Shown here: positions 53,179 through 62,633 of the stretch, one piece after another | Layout: each line of letters begins with the position of its first letter | Numbering within the stretch: the first letter of the stretch is position 1 | NCBI GenBank assembly: GCA_002897635.1 | Contig: BDTD01000033.1 | Span: 1 to 64,000, forward strand | Direction of reading: 5' to 3' | From: a bacterium BMS3Abin11 | Lineage (GTDB): Bacteria > Pseudomonadota > Gammaproteobacteria > BMS3Bbin11 | DNA: 64,000 nt | The notes under the pieces: model-generated | What the model was told of the DNA's origin: nothing | Databases searched by the model: none | Seen by the model: only the letters and a program-made list of their open reading frames with translations | Translations under genes and position numbers: made by a program

Positions 53179-53795
53179 TATTTTTTGTCCGCCAACAGTG
53201 CAATCCGCACCAGTCCAGAGACAGAGCCTGCTTCCATTTTTGACATGAGATTGGCGCGGTGTGTTTCTATGGTTTTTACGCTGATGTCCAGCTCACGAGC
53301 CATGGTTTTGTTGGAACACCCGGCTACTATACAGTCCAGCACCTGTATTTCCCTGCTACTGAGCCTCTGCAGACGGTCGCAGGCATCCTGGCGGCGCTGT
53401 GTACTTACTTTCTGGCTGCGGCTTTTTTCTATTGCCTGTTGAATTCGGTCAATCAGGTGCTGATCATTGAATGGTTTCTCGATAAAATCAAAGACACCTG
53501 ACTTGAATGCCCGTACGGCCATTGGCACATCCGCATGCCCTGAAATTATAATCACTGGCAGAACAAAATTCTGCTGCCGTAATTCTTCCTGCAGATCAAG
53601 CCCACTGATACCAGGCATACGCACATCCAGCACAACACAGCCGGTCTGCTGATTTTTATAACCGTCCAGAAACTCCTGTGCGGTGGCAAAACACTGCACC
53701 GGCAGCTGTACGGATTCAATCAACCAGCGCAGGGAATCTCTGACGCTGGCATCGTCATCAACAATGAAAACAATAGCTCCGTTTTCTTCATTCAC
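53178..53795 (-). CDS. FixJ-family response regulator
   Basis: 205 aa. The receiver has VFIVDDDASVRDSL, phospho-Asp in CVVLDVRMPGISGLDL, Thr/Ser in VIIISGHADVPMAVRA and Lys in DFIEKPFNDQ. The LuxR-type HTH has LSSREIQVLDCIVAGCSNKT and VETHRANLMSKM-like residues (here VKTIETHRANL). The GTG start at 53795 overlaps the sensor kinase stop by eight bases. TtrR-like regulators of this build control tetrathionate or thiosulfate enzymes beside PhnD-type sensors; the target here is not known. Confidence 0.85.
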   Translation of the reverse strand: MNEENGAIVFIVDDDASVRDSLRWLIESVQLPVQCFATAQEFLDGYKNQQTGCVVLDVRMPGISGLDLQEELRQQNFVLPVIIISGHADVPMAVRAFKSGVFDFIEKPFNDQHLIDRIQQAIEKSRSQKVSTQRRQDACDRLQRLSSREIQVLDCIVAGCSNKTMARELDISVKTIETHRANLMSKMEAGSVSGLVRIALLADKK

Positions 53796-56229
53796 ACGCA
53801 ACTCCAGATTGTGGCAAGGTAAGCCCAACAATAGTGTATTGCCCTGAACTATCAGTATACATAGTCCCGCCATGCGCTTCTATAATGGTGCGGCTGATCG
53901 AGAGCCCCATACCCAAACCCTCATCTTTCGTGGTATAGAACGGATCAAATATCTGCTGCTGCTCACCGTCAGGTAGACCGCTACCGGTATCCCTGACTTC
54001 AATATGGACCATATCAGCCTGTACCATAGAGGAGACCACCTCGATCTCTTTTTCACCCTGCCAGGGAATATTTACAGCATCGATGGCATTACGCAGCAAA
54101 TTAAGCAGCACCTGTTCAATCTGGATAGCATCAACGATTAAAATGGGTATATTTTCAGCAAGTGAAAGTTTCAGGGTGATCGATTTTCCTTCCATTTCGC
54201 TTCTTAGAAAACCGCTGACCCGTGTAATCAACTCATTGATCTTAACGCGCTCATGATGCGGGTCCTCCTTGTTGACGAATGCGCGTAGTCGACGGATGAT
54301 CTCGGCTGCTCTTTCTGCCTCATGTATTGACTGCTGCATTATTGCGGTAAGCTCCGTGACTTCAAGATTACCCCTGTCTATTCGACGCTGGCAGCCGCGT
54401 ATATAATTAGCGATCGCGGTCAGTGGCTGATTCAGTTCATGTGCCAGACCGGATGCCATCTCTCCCATAGTACTCAAACGTGTAACATGGGCCAGGTCAG
54501 ACAGGTGCTGCTGCTCTCTATCGCCTACCTGTTTGCGGGCGATTTCCATACCCAGCCAGTCAGCAATCAACTGTAATATATCCCGATCCACTTCACCAAG
54601 ATTGCGGCTCACATCCTGATCATCAGCAAGGCATAAAAATCCGAATGGCCTGCCTTCAACTAATATCTTTACTGCCACACAGGACAATAAATCTGCTTCA
54701 TCCTCTACATTGCCATCAACAGGAAATGATTTTTCCATCAGCAGGACGTCATCATCCTGCAGCATTTCGTCAAACTCATCGATGCCGATGCCACCGGGAA
54801 GTATTGTTGCTTCATCTACGTTATTTGAAGTAGCTGTAGTGTCAAATCCTGCACCTACCTTCATCACCACTGAAACACCTTCATCATTGCGCCGGTAAAG
54901 GCTGGCAGATGCAAAACCAAAGTGCTTCCTGCCCAGCTCGATCAGCGCACTGATTTTTTCTTCCAGCGGAACCGGGAAGACGGAGGCTATTCTGTTCAAC
55001 TCCCGCAGAGTGAGTTCACTATGCTGCAAAGCAGAATTCAGCTCAGCCAGGCTCGCAGTACGCTCTACTACACGCTGCTCAAGAAAGCGCTTGTTCTCAT
55101 TCAATTTTTCCTGTGCAACGACACGCTCTGCAATCTCATCCTGCAGGATATGCTGGGTATCAACCAGCCTGCGGTTAACTCTCAGGACATAAATACTGAG
55201 TAGCGCAAGGCCAAAAAGCACCGTCAGGATCAAGACCAGCCAATGCGCGTATTCTTTTATCGTTTTGCTTAGAGAAAGTTGTGTGGCGGGAAAGTATGGT
55301 CCTATACGTAACTCACGCATCAATTCGTTTACCCTGGTGTAGTCAAGCGGAATCGTCCAACTCACCCAGTCAGTGCCGGATAGCGAAAACGCACCTTTCG
55401 GAGCTGACAGTAATGCAACGAGTAGCTTGCTGGCCAGTACATCTGGCGTATGCTTGAGTTTTGCCAATGGCCATTCTGGGTACAGGCGAGTACTGAGAAG
55501 AAACTGAAAACCCTCCACATTACGGTTTTGCAGAACACGTATTTTGTCCAGTTCCATTTTGCCATTCAAAGCCATGTTTTCGAGTATGCCAGTTCGTACG
55601 GTGCCAGCATCCACTTTCCCGTTCATCACAGCATTTACAATATTGTCCTGTGGAAAACCATTGAACTTGAGTTCAGCAATATCCTTAAATGGATCGATAC
55701 CGGCATCTTTCAGTTCACGCCATGCCATCTGAAAACCGCCAAAAGCATGATTGTTAACAATCATCAGGGATCGCCCTTTGAGATCTTTCAGGGATTTTAT
55801 ATCGGGATTATCGCGACGGGTAAATACAACGGCGCCATAGTGTGAATAAGCATGCCCCAGCCAGTGACGCTTTAAGGTGGCTATACGTGAGGCACCATAC
55901 CTCGATTCAAGCAGAACATAATTTCCTGGATTGGTCAGAACAAAATCAATATCTTCAGCTGCAGTCGCCTTGCGCATCTGCTCTAAATTCAGCGGCACAA
56001 TCTGAAAGTGAACCCCCGACAAATTTTTATTCAGGTAATCAGCCATCGGCTGCCAACGGGACATGGCCTGCTTATAGCCGCGGAAGGCCAGCACACCAAT
56101 GCGCACGGCTACACTCTCCTGTTGCGCCAATGCAGGCGCCTGGAAAAAAAGAACACCAGATAGAAGCATCAGGGCTGTGCTTAGTCCAATAAAAAATCGT
56201 ACAGGGCGGTGGGCCGCCATAATAGTCAT
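53788..56229 (-). CDS. Sensor histidine kinase with periplasmic PhnD-like domain
   Basis: 813 aa, four parts in order. Signal segment and periplasmic binding-protein-like domain (residues 40-315): VRIGVLAFRGYKQAMSRWQP, FVLTNPGNYVLLESRYG, SLKDLKGRSLMIVNNHAFGG. One membrane helix (VLILTVLFGLALLSIYVL, about 330-350). A coiled coil and a GAF-like region (about 400-560). HisKA with GLAHELNQPLTAIANYIRGC, then HATPase (LRNAIDAVNI, VRDTGSGLPDGEQQ, GLGMGLSISRTIIEAHGG). This is the TtrS-type layout, so it could sense a sulfur oxyanion, but the ligand is inferred. The regulator gene overlaps its end. Confidence 0.85.
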   Translation of the reverse strand: MTIMAAHRPVRFFIGLSTALMLLSGVLFFQAPALAQQESVAVRIGVLAFRGYKQAMSRWQPMADYLNKNLSGVHFQIVPLNLEQMRKATAAEDIDFVLTNPGNYVLLESRYGASRIATLKRHWLGHAYSHYGAVVFTRRDNPDIKSLKDLKGRSLMIVNNHAFGGFQMAWRELKDAGIDPFKDIAELKFNGFPQDNIVNAVMNGKVDAGTVRTGILENMALNGKMELDKIRVLQNRNVEGFQFLLSTRLYPEWPLAKLKHTPDVLASKLLVALLSAPKGAFSLSGTDWVSWTIPLDYTRVNELMRELRIGPYFPATQLSLSKTIKEYAHWLVLILTVLFGLALLSIYVLRVNRRLVDTQHILQDEIAERVVAQEKLNENKRFLEQRVVERTASLAELNSALQHSELTLRELNRIASVFPVPLEEKISALIELGRKHFGFASASLYRRNDEGVSVVMKVGAGFDTTATSNNVDEATILPGGIGIDEFDEMLQDDDVLLMEKSFPVDGNVEDEADLLSCVAVKILVEGRPFGFLCLADDQDVSRNLGEVDRDILQLIADWLGMEIARKQVGDREQQHLSDLAHVTRLSTMGEMASGLAHELNQPLTAIANYIRGCQRRIDRGNLEVTELTAIMQQSIHEAERAAEIIRRLRAFVNKEDPHHERVKINELITRVSGFLRSEMEGKSITLKLSLAENIPILIVDAIQIEQVLLNLLRNAIDAVNIPWQGEKEIEVVSSMVQADMVHIEVRDTGSGLPDGEQQQIFDPFYTTKDEGLGMGLSISRTIIEAHGGTMYTDSSGQYTIVGLTLPQSGVACE

Positions 56230-59195: not shown

Positions 59196-59570
59196 ATGGC
59201 AGCAGTTAACCTGACAAATGAAACATTCAGCGATACCGTTAACGATAACGATATCGTAATTATCGACTTCTGGGCAGAGTGGTGCGGCCCGTGCAAGAAT
59301 TTCGCACCGATCTACGAGGAAGTTTCCGAAAAACATGAGGATATTGTGTTCGCCAAGGTCAACACCGAGGAAGAGCAGGAACTGGGGGCATCATTTCAGA
59401 TACGTTCTATCCCGACGCTTATGATCTTCCGTGAGAAAATCATCCTTTATTCACAGCCAGGCATGATGGCCGGGCCCGAGCTCGACGGACTGATCGATAA
59501 AGTAAAACAACTGGATATGGACAAGATCAGGGCTGAAATAACTGAACAGGAAGAGCAGAAGCAGGCTTGA
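59196..59570 (+). CDS. Thioredoxin-family protein
   Basis: 124 aa. Active-site WCGPC in IIDFWAEWCGPCKNF, cis-Pro in SIPTLMIFRE, so redox-active. A C-terminal extension (KVKQLDMDKIRAEITEQEEQ) beyond the usual ~108 residues is charged and helical. It reads as a thioredoxin-2-like protein with a tail. The ATG lies eleven bases after an AGGAAT SD. Single gene. Confidence 0.9.
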   Translation: MAAVNLTNETFSDTVNDNDIVIIDFWAEWCGPCKNFAPIYEEVSEKHEDIVFAKVNTEEEQELGASFQIRSIPTLMIFREKIILYSQPGMMAGPELDGLIDKVKQLDMDKIRAEITEQEEQKQA

Positions 59571-59590: not shown

Positions 59591-59733
59591 AGTTCCAGGT
59601 TCCAGGTTCCAGGAGTAAAATCAACAACAAACAAAAATACCTTTAACCACAGAGTTTCGCAGAAATTTTTTGTTGTTTTAAACTTTACATTCTCTGCGAT
59701 TAATAGCTTTTGATTTTTGAAACCTGGAACTTT
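59591..59733. repeat. Composite repeat: heptads around an ACCACAGAG...CTCTGCGA element, copy 5
   Basis: Left heptads AGTTCCA, GGTTCCA, GGTTCCA, GGAGTAA (59591-59618). Centre ACCTTTAACCACAGAGTTTC-GCAGAA...TTTAAACTTTACATTCTCTG-CGATTAATAGC. Right remnant GAAACCT, GGAACTT (59719-59732). Same nested plan as at 45767 and 46374. Confidence 0.78.
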
Positions 59734-59748
59734 TTTACCAAACTCGAC

Positions 59749-59866
59749 AAAAAAAACCTCAATCCAGGGGTATATTAGGATTGAGGTCAATGGGGTTCTG
59801 TTTTGCCAGAACCATCCGCTCAGGGAGGAAAAGCGGAACACATCTAGCGATGTGCATAATCAGACA
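59749..59866 (-). ncRNA. Candidate small RNA downstream of polA (Spot 42 / ErsA position)
   Basis: Read on the minus strand there are four hairpins in about 105 bases: CACATC-GCTA-GATGTG (59854-59839); CCGCT-11 base loop-AGCGG (59836-59816), whose loop is UUUCCUCCCUG; GGTTCTG-GCAAAA-CAGAACC (59813-59794); and CCTCAATCC...GGATTGAGG (59786-59757), followed by eight T (59756-59749). The last is a textbook terminator. The third-to-first order gives a compact RNA with an exposed anti-Shine-Dalgarno loop (UCCUCC), typical of trans-acting sRNAs. GATAAT at 59878-59873 is a possible -10. Position downstream of polA matches Spot 42 and ErsA. There is no ORF here. Confidence 0.62.
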
Positions 59867-59954
59867 GCCGTTATTATCAAATAGTTCCCGCACAATATTT
59901 GTTATAATTTATGCAGGCCCGATTTTGTTGTATGAGCGTCGCCCCTACATTAAA

Positions 59955-62633
59955 TCAATGCGCCTCATCCCAGTTCGCCCCCACCCCGACGTCCACTAAC
60001 AATGGAACACGTAATTCCGCAACACCTGTCATAAGCTCTTGAACTTTTTCACTGACATGGTCGACCTGATCATCCGGCGCCTCAAAAACCAGCTCGTCAT
60101 GTACCTGCATAATCATCCTTACATCCTGTGCTTCACCCATAATCCATTTATCCACTGAAATCATGGCCATCTTGATCAGGTCAGCAGCTGTCCCCTGCAT
60201 CGGCGCATTGATGGCGGTTCGCTCGGCATATTGCCGGCGCATACCATTGCCGGAGTTGATTTCAGGCAAATAGAGGCGGCGGCCATAAACGGTTTCTACG
60301 TAGCCCTGTTCGTGCGCCAGCTTACGGGTTTCATCCATGTATGTTTTTACCCCGGGGTAACGCTCGAAATACAGATCGATATACTCCTGCGCTTCGCCGC
60401 GCTCAATGTTTAGCTGTTGTGCCAGGCCGAAGGCCGACATACCGTATATCAGACCGAAGTTGATCGCCTTGGCCGAGCGTCGCTGATCGGTAGTCACTTC
60501 ATCCAACGGGGTGGCAAAGACTTCGCTGGCAGTTGACCTATGAATGTCTGCACCTTCAGAAAATGCCTTCAGCAGACCTTCGTCACCGGATAAATGCGCC
60601 ATGATCCGTAGTTCCACCTGTGAATAGTCAGCCGACACCATGCGGAAGCCGCCATCTGGAATAAAGGCCTGCCGTATACGCCTGCCCTCTTTCGACCTGA
60701 CAGGAATATTCTGTAGATTAGGGTCAGATGATGATAAGCGCCCGGTTGCCGCAACGGCCTGGTGATATGAGGTGTGTACACGTCCGGTCCTGGGATTTAT
60801 CATCTGCGGCAATTTATCGGTGTATGTAGAACGCAGCTTACTCATTGAGCGATATTCAAGGATAAGGCGTGGCAGATCATAATCTGGTGCCAGTTCCTGC
60901 AGCACGGCCTCCGCCGTCGAAGGCTGGCCTTTGGGCGTCTTTTTAATAACCGGTAGGCCCAGTTTGTTAAACAAAATATCCTGCAACTGCGCCGGCGAGC
61001 CCAGGTTGAATTCCTGACCTGCCGCTTCGTGGGCCTGCCGTTCCAGGTCCACTATGCCCAGCGCCAGTTCCGAGCTTTGACGTTTTAGCATCCCCGCGTC
61101 AATGCGGACACCGTTTCGCTCCACCCTTGCCAGTATCGACAGTAACGGTATTTCAATGTCGCGATAAATAGACATCAGTTTTTCGCGCTTTTCCAGCGCT
61201 GGCCACAGGTGCTCGTGCAGGCGCAATGTGATGTCCGCATCTTCAGCGGCATAGGGTGAGGCTTGCTCCAGTGCAATATCATTAAATTTGAGCTGCTTCT
61301 TGCCCCTACCGGCAATGTCTTCAAAACGAATGGTTTTATGCCCCAGATGCTTCATTGCCAGGGTATCCATATCATGCCGGGAGGACGTGCTGTCCAGCAC
61401 GTAAGATTCCAGCATGGTGTCGTGTTCGATACCATTAAGAGCAATTGCATAGTTGGCCAGTACCTTCATGTCATATTTGAGGTTCTGGCCAATTTTTTTG
61501 ATCTCTTCATTTTCCAGCAGTGGCTTCATCTGCTGCAGCACCTGCCCACGATCAAGTTGCTCCGGTGCACCAGGGTAATCATGGCTCAGCGGAACGTAAG
61601 CTGCCTTGCCCGGCTCGACGGCAAAAGACAGGCCAACGATATCGGCCTGCATGGCATCCAGGTCCGTGGTCTCGGTATCGAAGGCAAAGATACCTCGGTG
61701 ATATATTTTATTTAACCAGTCGTCCAGTGATGACTGATCCAGTACCGTTTCGTACTCTGCTTCAGCACTCACCTGATCATTGGCGCCACCCAGTTCCGTC
61801 AACCAGGTCTTAAACTGTAGCTGCACATAGAGATCTTTAAGGCGTGATTCATCGGCCTGTTTAATCTTTAATTCATCCAGCTTGAGCGGCAGATCAAGCT
61901 GGCAACGTATGGTGACCAGGTCACGCGACAGTGGCAGAAATTCCAGCGAATCACGTAAATTCTCACCCAGCTTCCCTTTGACCTCATCGGCACGTTGCAT
62001 CAATGTATCGAGGTCGCCAAACTCTTCAAGCAACTTCGCTGCCGTTTTTGGTCCAATCTTGGGCACACCGGGAATATTGTCAGAAGGATCCCCCACCAGC
62101 GTCAGATAATCAATAAACCTGTCTGCAGACACGCCAAAGCGTGCCTTAACACCCTCAACATCCATCACCCTGTTATCCATAGTATTGACCAGCGTGACAT
62201 GCTCATTGACCAGCTGCGCCATATCCTTGTCGCCTGTTGATATCAGCACCTCAACTGAGTTCTCCACCGCCTGCGCCGCCAGTGTACCGATCACATCATC
62301 TGCCTCGACGCCTTCAATCACCAGCAGGGGAAGGCCCATAGCCTCAATAATTTCATATAGAAAAGGTACCTGGCTGCGCAGCTCATCCGGCATCGGCGGG
62401 CGGTTGGCCTTGTACTCTTCGTACAGGTCATTACGAAATGTTTTGCCTTTGGCATCAAATACCATGGCGATATATTCAGGCTGATACTGCTTCAGAAGAC
62501 TGCGCGTCATATTAATCACACCGTAGATGGCTCCGGTAGGCTGACCTTCGGAATTATTCAGCCCGGGCATGGCGTGGAAGGCGCGGTAGAGATAGGAAGA
62601 ACCGTCGACGAGGATGATGGGGGGTTTTGACAT
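59955..62633 (-). CDS. polA: DNA polymerase I
   Basis: 892 aa, three activities. The 5'-3' nuclease domain (residues 1-290) has ILVDGSSYLYRAFHAM, GVEADDVIGTLA and GDPSDNIPGVPKIGPKTAAK. The proofreading domain (about 310-490) has the acidic DTET site in FAFDTETTDLDAM and is likely active. The polymerase domain has MVSADYSQVELRIMAHLSGD, DQRRSAKAINFGLIYGMSAFG and the C-terminal MQVHDELVFEAP. Complete. Its 5' leader is a heptad array (62637-62685). Confidence 0.97.
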   Translation of the reverse strand: MSKPPIILVDGSSYLYRAFHAMPGLNNSEGQPTGAIYGVINMTRSLLKQYQPEYIAMVFDAKGKTFRNDLYEEYKANRPPMPDELRSQVPFLYEIIEAMGLPLLVIEGVEADDVIGTLAAQAVENSVEVLISTGDKDMAQLVNEHVTLVNTMDNRVMDVEGVKARFGVSADRFIDYLTLVGDPSDNIPGVPKIGPKTAAKLLEEFGDLDTLMQRADEVKGKLGENLRDSLEFLPLSRDLVTIRCQLDLPLKLDELKIKQADESRLKDLYVQLQFKTWLTELGGANDQVSAEAEYETVLDQSSLDDWLNKIYHRGIFAFDTETTDLDAMQADIVGLSFAVEPGKAAYVPLSHDYPGAPEQLDRGQVLQQMKPLLENEEIKKIGQNLKYDMKVLANYAIALNGIEHDTMLESYVLDSTSSRHDMDTLAMKHLGHKTIRFEDIAGRGKKQLKFNDIALEQASPYAAEDADITLRLHEHLWPALEKREKLMSIYRDIEIPLLSILARVERNGVRIDAGMLKRQSSELALGIVDLERQAHEAAGQEFNLGSPAQLQDILFNKLGLPVIKKTPKGQPSTAEAVLQELAPDYDLPRLILEYRSMSKLRSTYTDKLPQMINPRTGRVHTSYHQAVAATGRLSSSDPNLQNIPVRSKEGRRIRQAFIPDGGFRMVSADYSQVELRIMAHLSGDEGLLKAFSEGADIHRSTASEVFATPLDEVTTDQRRSAKAINFGLIYGMSAFGLAQQLNIERGEAQEYIDLYFERYPGVKTYMDETRKLAHEQGYVETVYGRRLYLPEINSGNGMRRQYAERTAINAPMQGTAADLIKMAMISVDKWIMGEAQDVRMIMQVHDELVFEAPDDQVDHVSEKVQELMTGVAELRVPLLVDVGVGANWDEAH

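Follow-up and report, generated by a model that had tools for sequence, protein, structure and literature searches.

The region downstream of polA in Gammaproteobacteria is the locus of the small RNAs (sRNAs) Spot 42, ErsA and sX13. ErsA of Pseudomonas represses algC by pairing at its ribosome-binding site (RBS) in an Hfq-dependent manner (PMC6321483), and ErsA itself strictly depends on sigma22 (PMC7565897). The sX13 RNA of Xanthomonas works independently of Hfq, using C-rich loops to target G-rich sites (PMC3771888). Then, do the polA loci of other bacteria also encode sRNAs that act in a similar way? This question has been raised by the authors of the sX13 study themselves (PMC3771888).

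Another RNA that should be considered here is ncS04 of Burkholderia cenocepacia, which belongs to the Rfam family RF02837 (anti-hemB). It is 105 nt long, it was detected by dRNA-Seq and Northern blot, RACE verified its 3' end, and Hfq binding has been reported for it (PMC5688073). Its level was unchanged under the conditions tested in B. cenocepacia, membrane stress included (PMC5688073, Table 2). The label “anti-hemB” most likely derives from Bc7, an sRNA co-purified with Hfq for which hemB is only a predicted target (PMC6321483); Bc7 is most likely the ncS04/RF02837 RNA, judging from the names. CU-rich loops that pair with RBSs are also found in Bordetella S17, in the Burkholderia double-hairpin RNAs (RF02278) and in Neisseria NmsR (PMC11722255, PMC5688073). 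In the open-access literature searched, ErsA and sX13 are not treated together, and anti-hemB is joined to neither of them.

Here, we describe an element next to polA in the bacterium BMS3Abin11, located in a stretch of 64,000 nt (contig BDTD01000033.1) that was analysed as a whole and is called the window below. An earlier note, made from the letters of the window alone, had proposed a candidate sRNA at this place.

Position, fold and identity of the element

The features of the locus, in window positions, are as follows.

59955-62633, minus strand: polA, DNA polymerase I (Pfam DNA_pol_A, 552.5 bits), upstream of the sRNA gene and on the same strand
59957-59955, minus strand: polA stop codon; the sRNA hairpins lie 89-206 nt downstream
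59882-59888, minus strand: -35 element GGAACTA, 6/7 to GGAACTT, kept in five family members and class-wide
59860-59865, minus strand: -10 element GTCTGA, which fits GTCNNA, with a spacer of 16
59749-59857, minus strand: whole sRNA gene according to model R2 (85.9 bits), the sole R2 match in the window
59854-59839, minus strand: hairpin H1 in the fold, CACAUC-GCUA-GAUGUG, 6 pairs, outside the Rfam model
59837-59815, minus strand: hairpin HA, 7 bp, the second of four, with the putative anti-Shine-Dalgarno seed
59830-59822, minus strand: HA loop, UUCCUCCCU
59813-59794, minus strand: hairpin HB, 7 bp, loop GCAAAA
59788-59755, minus strand: intrinsic terminator, 11 bp, C-rich loop UAAUAUACCCCU
59756-59749, minus strand: U8 tract at the 3' end of the terminator, presumed Hfq site
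59196-59570, plus strand: thioredoxin-domain protein (Pfam PF00085, 92.8 bits), convergent; engB in most relatives

The minus-strand fold of the four-hairpin element reaches -49 kcal/mol (z = -6.2), and none of 200 shuffles was as good. The fold confirms the four hairpins and the U8 terminator that the earlier note had seen on the polA strand; the distance of 90-200 bases after the polA stop given there agrees with the one measured. The loop that had been read as anti-Shine-Dalgarno is that of HA, and the neighbourhood had rightly been recognized as that of Spot 42 and ErsA. The sRNA gene adjoins polA; the relatives mostly have the polA-engB arrangement, and the convergent neighbour in the window is the thioredoxin-like gene.

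Between this gene and the sRNA, at 59594-59738, there is an imperfect inverted repeat (GTTCCAGGTTCCAGGTTCCAGG ... AAACCTGGAACTTTTTT), which probably terminates the thioredoxin gene or else belongs to a dispersed repeat. An open reading frame of about 32 codons is located inside the sRNA (59857-59760, start ATG at 59857). It was considered as a small protein, and the coding reading was rejected because the start codon is not kept in the four relatives and the reading frame is disrupted by indels. Elsewhere in the window, at 53788-56229, one protein fuses a phosphonate-binding periplasmic domain, a GAF domain and a histidine kinase.

Searching Rfam 15 with cmscan identified a match to RF02837 at 59838-59749 on the minus strand, with 57.8 bits against a gathering threshold of 49.5 (E = 2.8e-13), which covers the full length of the model (1-81 of 81). 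It is the sole above-threshold Rfam match in the whole window, and RF02837 is matched once in the whole genome. Consequently, the description of the candidate as unannotated does not hold: judged by this match, the element beside polA is a member of RF02837, and it adds a further organism to this known family. Three core hairpins, the anti-Shine-Dalgarno loop, the terminator and a length of about 105 nt (predicted for the element) are common to the element and RF02837/ncS04. The Rfam model, however, omits H1 as well as the promoter and carries the label Burkholderia RNA 7; in the window, CCC is missing from the HB loop, and the stems contain more AU.

Covariation, conservation and a sigmaE-type promoter

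A broader model, R2, was built from 105 members, and the corresponding model-guided alignment is termed A3. Double changes occur in 31 of 31 base pairs of A3, so the compensatory stem changes in relatives that the earlier note had named as a check are present. The paired cells amount to 93.6%, compared with 64.4% for shuffled sequences and 35-48% for slid registers; it should be noted that A3 was fitted to the structure, which flatters the slid control, while folds made one by one are free of that bias. When folded singly, 94 of the 105 members form the complete series of four hairpins in the right order. Covariation scores 0.635, while shuffled sequences give 0.168. A first RNAalifold run on a poor sequence alignment had given few pairs and is superseded by the model-guided alignment. 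Across the 105 sequences, H1, which lies outside the Rfam model, has double changes in all 6 of its pairs with 94.0% pairing, and the main helix of HA is 97.2% paired.

The loops are conserved to different degrees. CUCCC is present in the HA loop of 100/105 relatives, while the pairs of the HA stem vary. CCC is found in the HB loop of 79/105 and in the terminator loop of 71/105 relatives; it is missing from HB in the window's own family, which thus retains two C-rich loops where three are usual. Members of this family are 65-89% identical between H1 and the U tract, whereas the promoter shows 47-83% and the flanking sequence 21-46% identity; the conserved island starts at the -35 element and ends at the U tract. 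The four-hairpin structure is under selection.

The promoter at 59888-59860 was missed by the earlier note. Putative sigmaE-type promoters were scored by a self-written rule out of 11, with 9 or more as a pass, and the window promoter, GGAACTA-N16-GTCTGA, scores 10. The start predicted from it is at about 59855-59852, which would give an RNA of about 104-107 nt. Alignment of the upstream regions reveals, directly before H1 and at a distance of about 24 nt from HA, the block GGAACTT-N15/16-GTC(A/T)(T)A. A score of at least 9 was obtained in 38 of the 48 first loci and in 49 of the 60 loci of a second batch, which was unused in motif discovery and overlaps the first one in clades; when random segments of these same 60 loci are scored, 1.6 pass on average and at most 6. 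The same holds for 16/25 loci picked by PolA that have an R2 match (E up to 0.44). No sigma70-type promoter was found near the element. The genome contains rpoE (310.5 bits), followed by rseA-like and rseB-like frames whose identities were read from the translations, and upstream of rpoE there is GAACTTTT..GTCACA, similar to the sRNA promoter. The Pseudomonas-type ErsA locus has TGAACTT-N16-GTCATA at the matching place. The sRNA would apparently have a promoter to itself, of the sigmaE (RpoE) type.

Spread across Gammaproteobacteria and kinship

The class was taken as Gammaproteobacteria sensu GTDB, from named PolA relatives. RF02837-like RNAs were detected in 167 of 369 class genomes (E up to 0.001), only 20 of them above the Rfam cut-off; R2 has matches in 174 of the 369 genomes and in 132 of 271 genera, and about half of the sampled class genomes are without a match. 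Most copies follow polA on its own strand and have engB as the convergent gene on their far side, and in the second batch polA or engB lies within about 1.5 kb in 47 of the 60 loci. Among 80 named loci picked by PolA alone, 21 contain R2 matches (24 in total, E up to 0.01), all of which are on the polA strand and just after polA. Three genomes of the window's genus (G299, G369 and G370) have no clear sRNA match; they also lack a full PolA match and hold only 5'-exonuclease-like partial ones. They are not evidence of sRNA loss, because the polA locus is missing from the assemblies.

Some loci deviate from the common arrangement. Tandem arrays of up to four sRNA copies beside polA occur in L095 (G171:C33:13148-13902), L105 (G279:C8:6558-7493) and L100 (G263:C3:217579-218301), and pairs or triples were found in further genomes, e.g., L162, L012 and L025. 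In L034 (G014:C26), the strand opposite to polA carries an unambiguous RF02837-like RNA together with the promoter, which suggests that the gene can flip and yet stay at the polA locus. In a Methylococcaceae MAG (L168, 5717-5880), a strong sigmaE-type promoter, GGAACTT..GTCATA, follows polA, and the shorter hairpin series after it, with a CUCCCCC loop, is barely detected by the models (R2, E = 1.9). It is perhaps a reduced member of the family.

How, then, is the element related to the other polA-side sRNAs? In the window's genome there is no match to ErsA (RF01719) or sX13 (RF02232), both with gathering thresholds of 50 bits, and the element is not filed as ErsA. In Rfam scans of the relatives, subthreshold matches to ErsA, sX13 and ar14 appear at coordinates identical to those of RF02837; at least 7 of the 12 subthreshold ErsA matches in the 369 genomes fall on RF02837/R2 elements, as do several sX13 matches. 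R2 detects sX13 loci outside its training set in the correct place (E = 6e-6 to 2e-5). Its score for ErsA is not independent, since ErsA is one of the 105 rows of A3; model R1, built from five sequences of the window's family only, touches the ErsA locus with E = 0.056, an independent but weak match.

Like ErsA, the element lies next to polA (with engB beyond in most relatives), has H1, C-rich loops and a U-tailed terminator, and is preceded at the matching place by a putative promoter of the sigmaE/sigma22 type, but ErsA has a U-rich unpaired domain where the element has HA with CCUCCCU. Common to the element and sX13 are the place downstream of polA and hairpins with C-rich loops (4C/4C/5C in sX13), and the models cross-match in several genomes; sX13 differs in being Hfq-independent and in having a promoter that fails the sigmaE-type scoring rule. 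Spot 42 resembles the element in its position between polA and yihA/engB, its size and its terminator. The CUCCC hairpin is absent from it, and Spot 42 is repressed by CRP rather than driven by sigmaE. There is no match to Spot 42 (RF00021) in the window's genome and none above the 80-bit gathering cut-off in the 369 class genomes. The best R2 match at Spot 42, which is mainly to H1 and the terminator, scores 22.1 bits, while within 98 kb of E. coli sequence a site with no relation to it reaches 19.7, and kinship with Spot 42 is not claimed. As for S17, the double-hairpin RNAs and NmsR, no match to RF02278 was found here and the number of hairpins is different; the likeness is a functional analogy from the literature only. 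The earlier note had seen no obvious similarity to Spot 42 or ErsA; a distant similarity to ErsA, and to sX13, can be measured.

Mode of action and rival explanations

We consider it likely that the element gives rise to an sRNA of about 105 nt that acts in trans, is driven by sigmaE and probably assisted by Hfq, and blocks ribosome-binding sites via its C-rich loops. Under envelope stress, RpoE would raise the level of the sRNA, and the intrinsic terminator would end the transcript with the U8 tail, to which Hfq would bind. A set of mRNAs would be repressed, as algC is by ErsA in Pseudomonas: their purine-rich Shine-Dalgarno sequences would be bound by the HA loop CCUCCCU, with the CCCC in the loop of the terminator as an aid, and could then no longer be translated. 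Scanning the organism's own genome for CAGGGAGG-N4-10-ATG gave 11 matches, several of them not at real genes, against 3 for the control. The only clear genes among them are 6-phosphogluconate dehydrogenase (gnd-like) and ftsL, candidate targets that should be taken as leads only. For hfq and rpoE as targets, the duplex energies were no better than those of shuffles and no unusual complementarity was found. These target results speak against the proposed mode of action, as do the unchanged level of ncS04 in B. cenocepacia, the Hfq-free action of sX13 and the half or so of the class genomes that lack a match.

The binding of Hfq is the least certain of these steps, because ErsA needs Hfq whereas sX13 acts without it. 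With the U8 3' tail and with hfq present in the genome (G000:C18:185669), Hfq dependence of the element is plausible. It is also conceivable, though we rate it as doubtful, that the C-rich apical loops kiss G-rich sites of mRNAs without the help of Hfq, as in Xanthomonas. The layout is common to the element and sX13, which represses its targets in this way (PMC3771888), and the fold offers no long single-stranded seed region; the tail, the presence of hfq and the Hfq binding reported for ncS04 argue in the other direction, as does the loss of the C run from HB in the window's family.

Could the element belong to polA itself, as an RNA cut from the 3'UTR of its mRNA or as a structured, non-regulatory terminator? 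The common strand, the 89 nt from the polA stop and the lack of a nearby sigma70-type promoter would fit. However, the sequence that separates polA from the promoter is unconserved (identity 0.29-0.46), whereas the sigmaE-type promoter and the RNA are conserved, the HA loop stays invariant amid varying stems, which a terminator would not need, and both tandem copies and an RNA opposite to polA (L034) exist, so that this explanation appears highly improbable. The similarity to ErsA and sX13 may reflect convergence, in which case the models would respond to every array of GC-rich hairpins that combines C-rich loops with a terminator. Anti-Shine-Dalgarno loops do arise repeatedly, the alphaproteobacterial ar14 also matches weakly, and isolated background matches score up to about 20-29 bits per genome. 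Against this speak the coincidence of the ErsA matches with RF02837 elements, the E-values of the untrained sX13 loci in the right place, the polA position common to all and the promoter type shared with ErsA, and we regard convergence as rather unlikely. Since C-rich hairpin arrays can converge, the view that RF02837, ErsA and sX13 form one family is held with high but not complete confidence.

Going further, we lean slightly towards the view that RF02837, RF01719 and RF02232 together form a single family of orthologous sRNAs that is ancestral to most Gammaproteobacteria (GTDB), is fixed beside polA and was originally controlled by RpoE. The envelope-stress role of ErsA would then be ancestral, and Spot 42 may be a derived, re-wired form in enterics and vibrios. 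The sRNAs at polA loci, found in about half of the 369 genomes with one common architecture and an apparent sigmaE promoter, would answer the question of the sX13 authors with yes. The RF02837 family is far wider than its label, and the unification together with the class-wide promoter seems to be the interesting part. If this is true, the separately named sRNAs of Burkholderia, Pseudomonas and Xanthomonas would become one member of the envelope-stress regulon, their targets would be comparable between species, and a broader Rfam model or a clan would be suggested.
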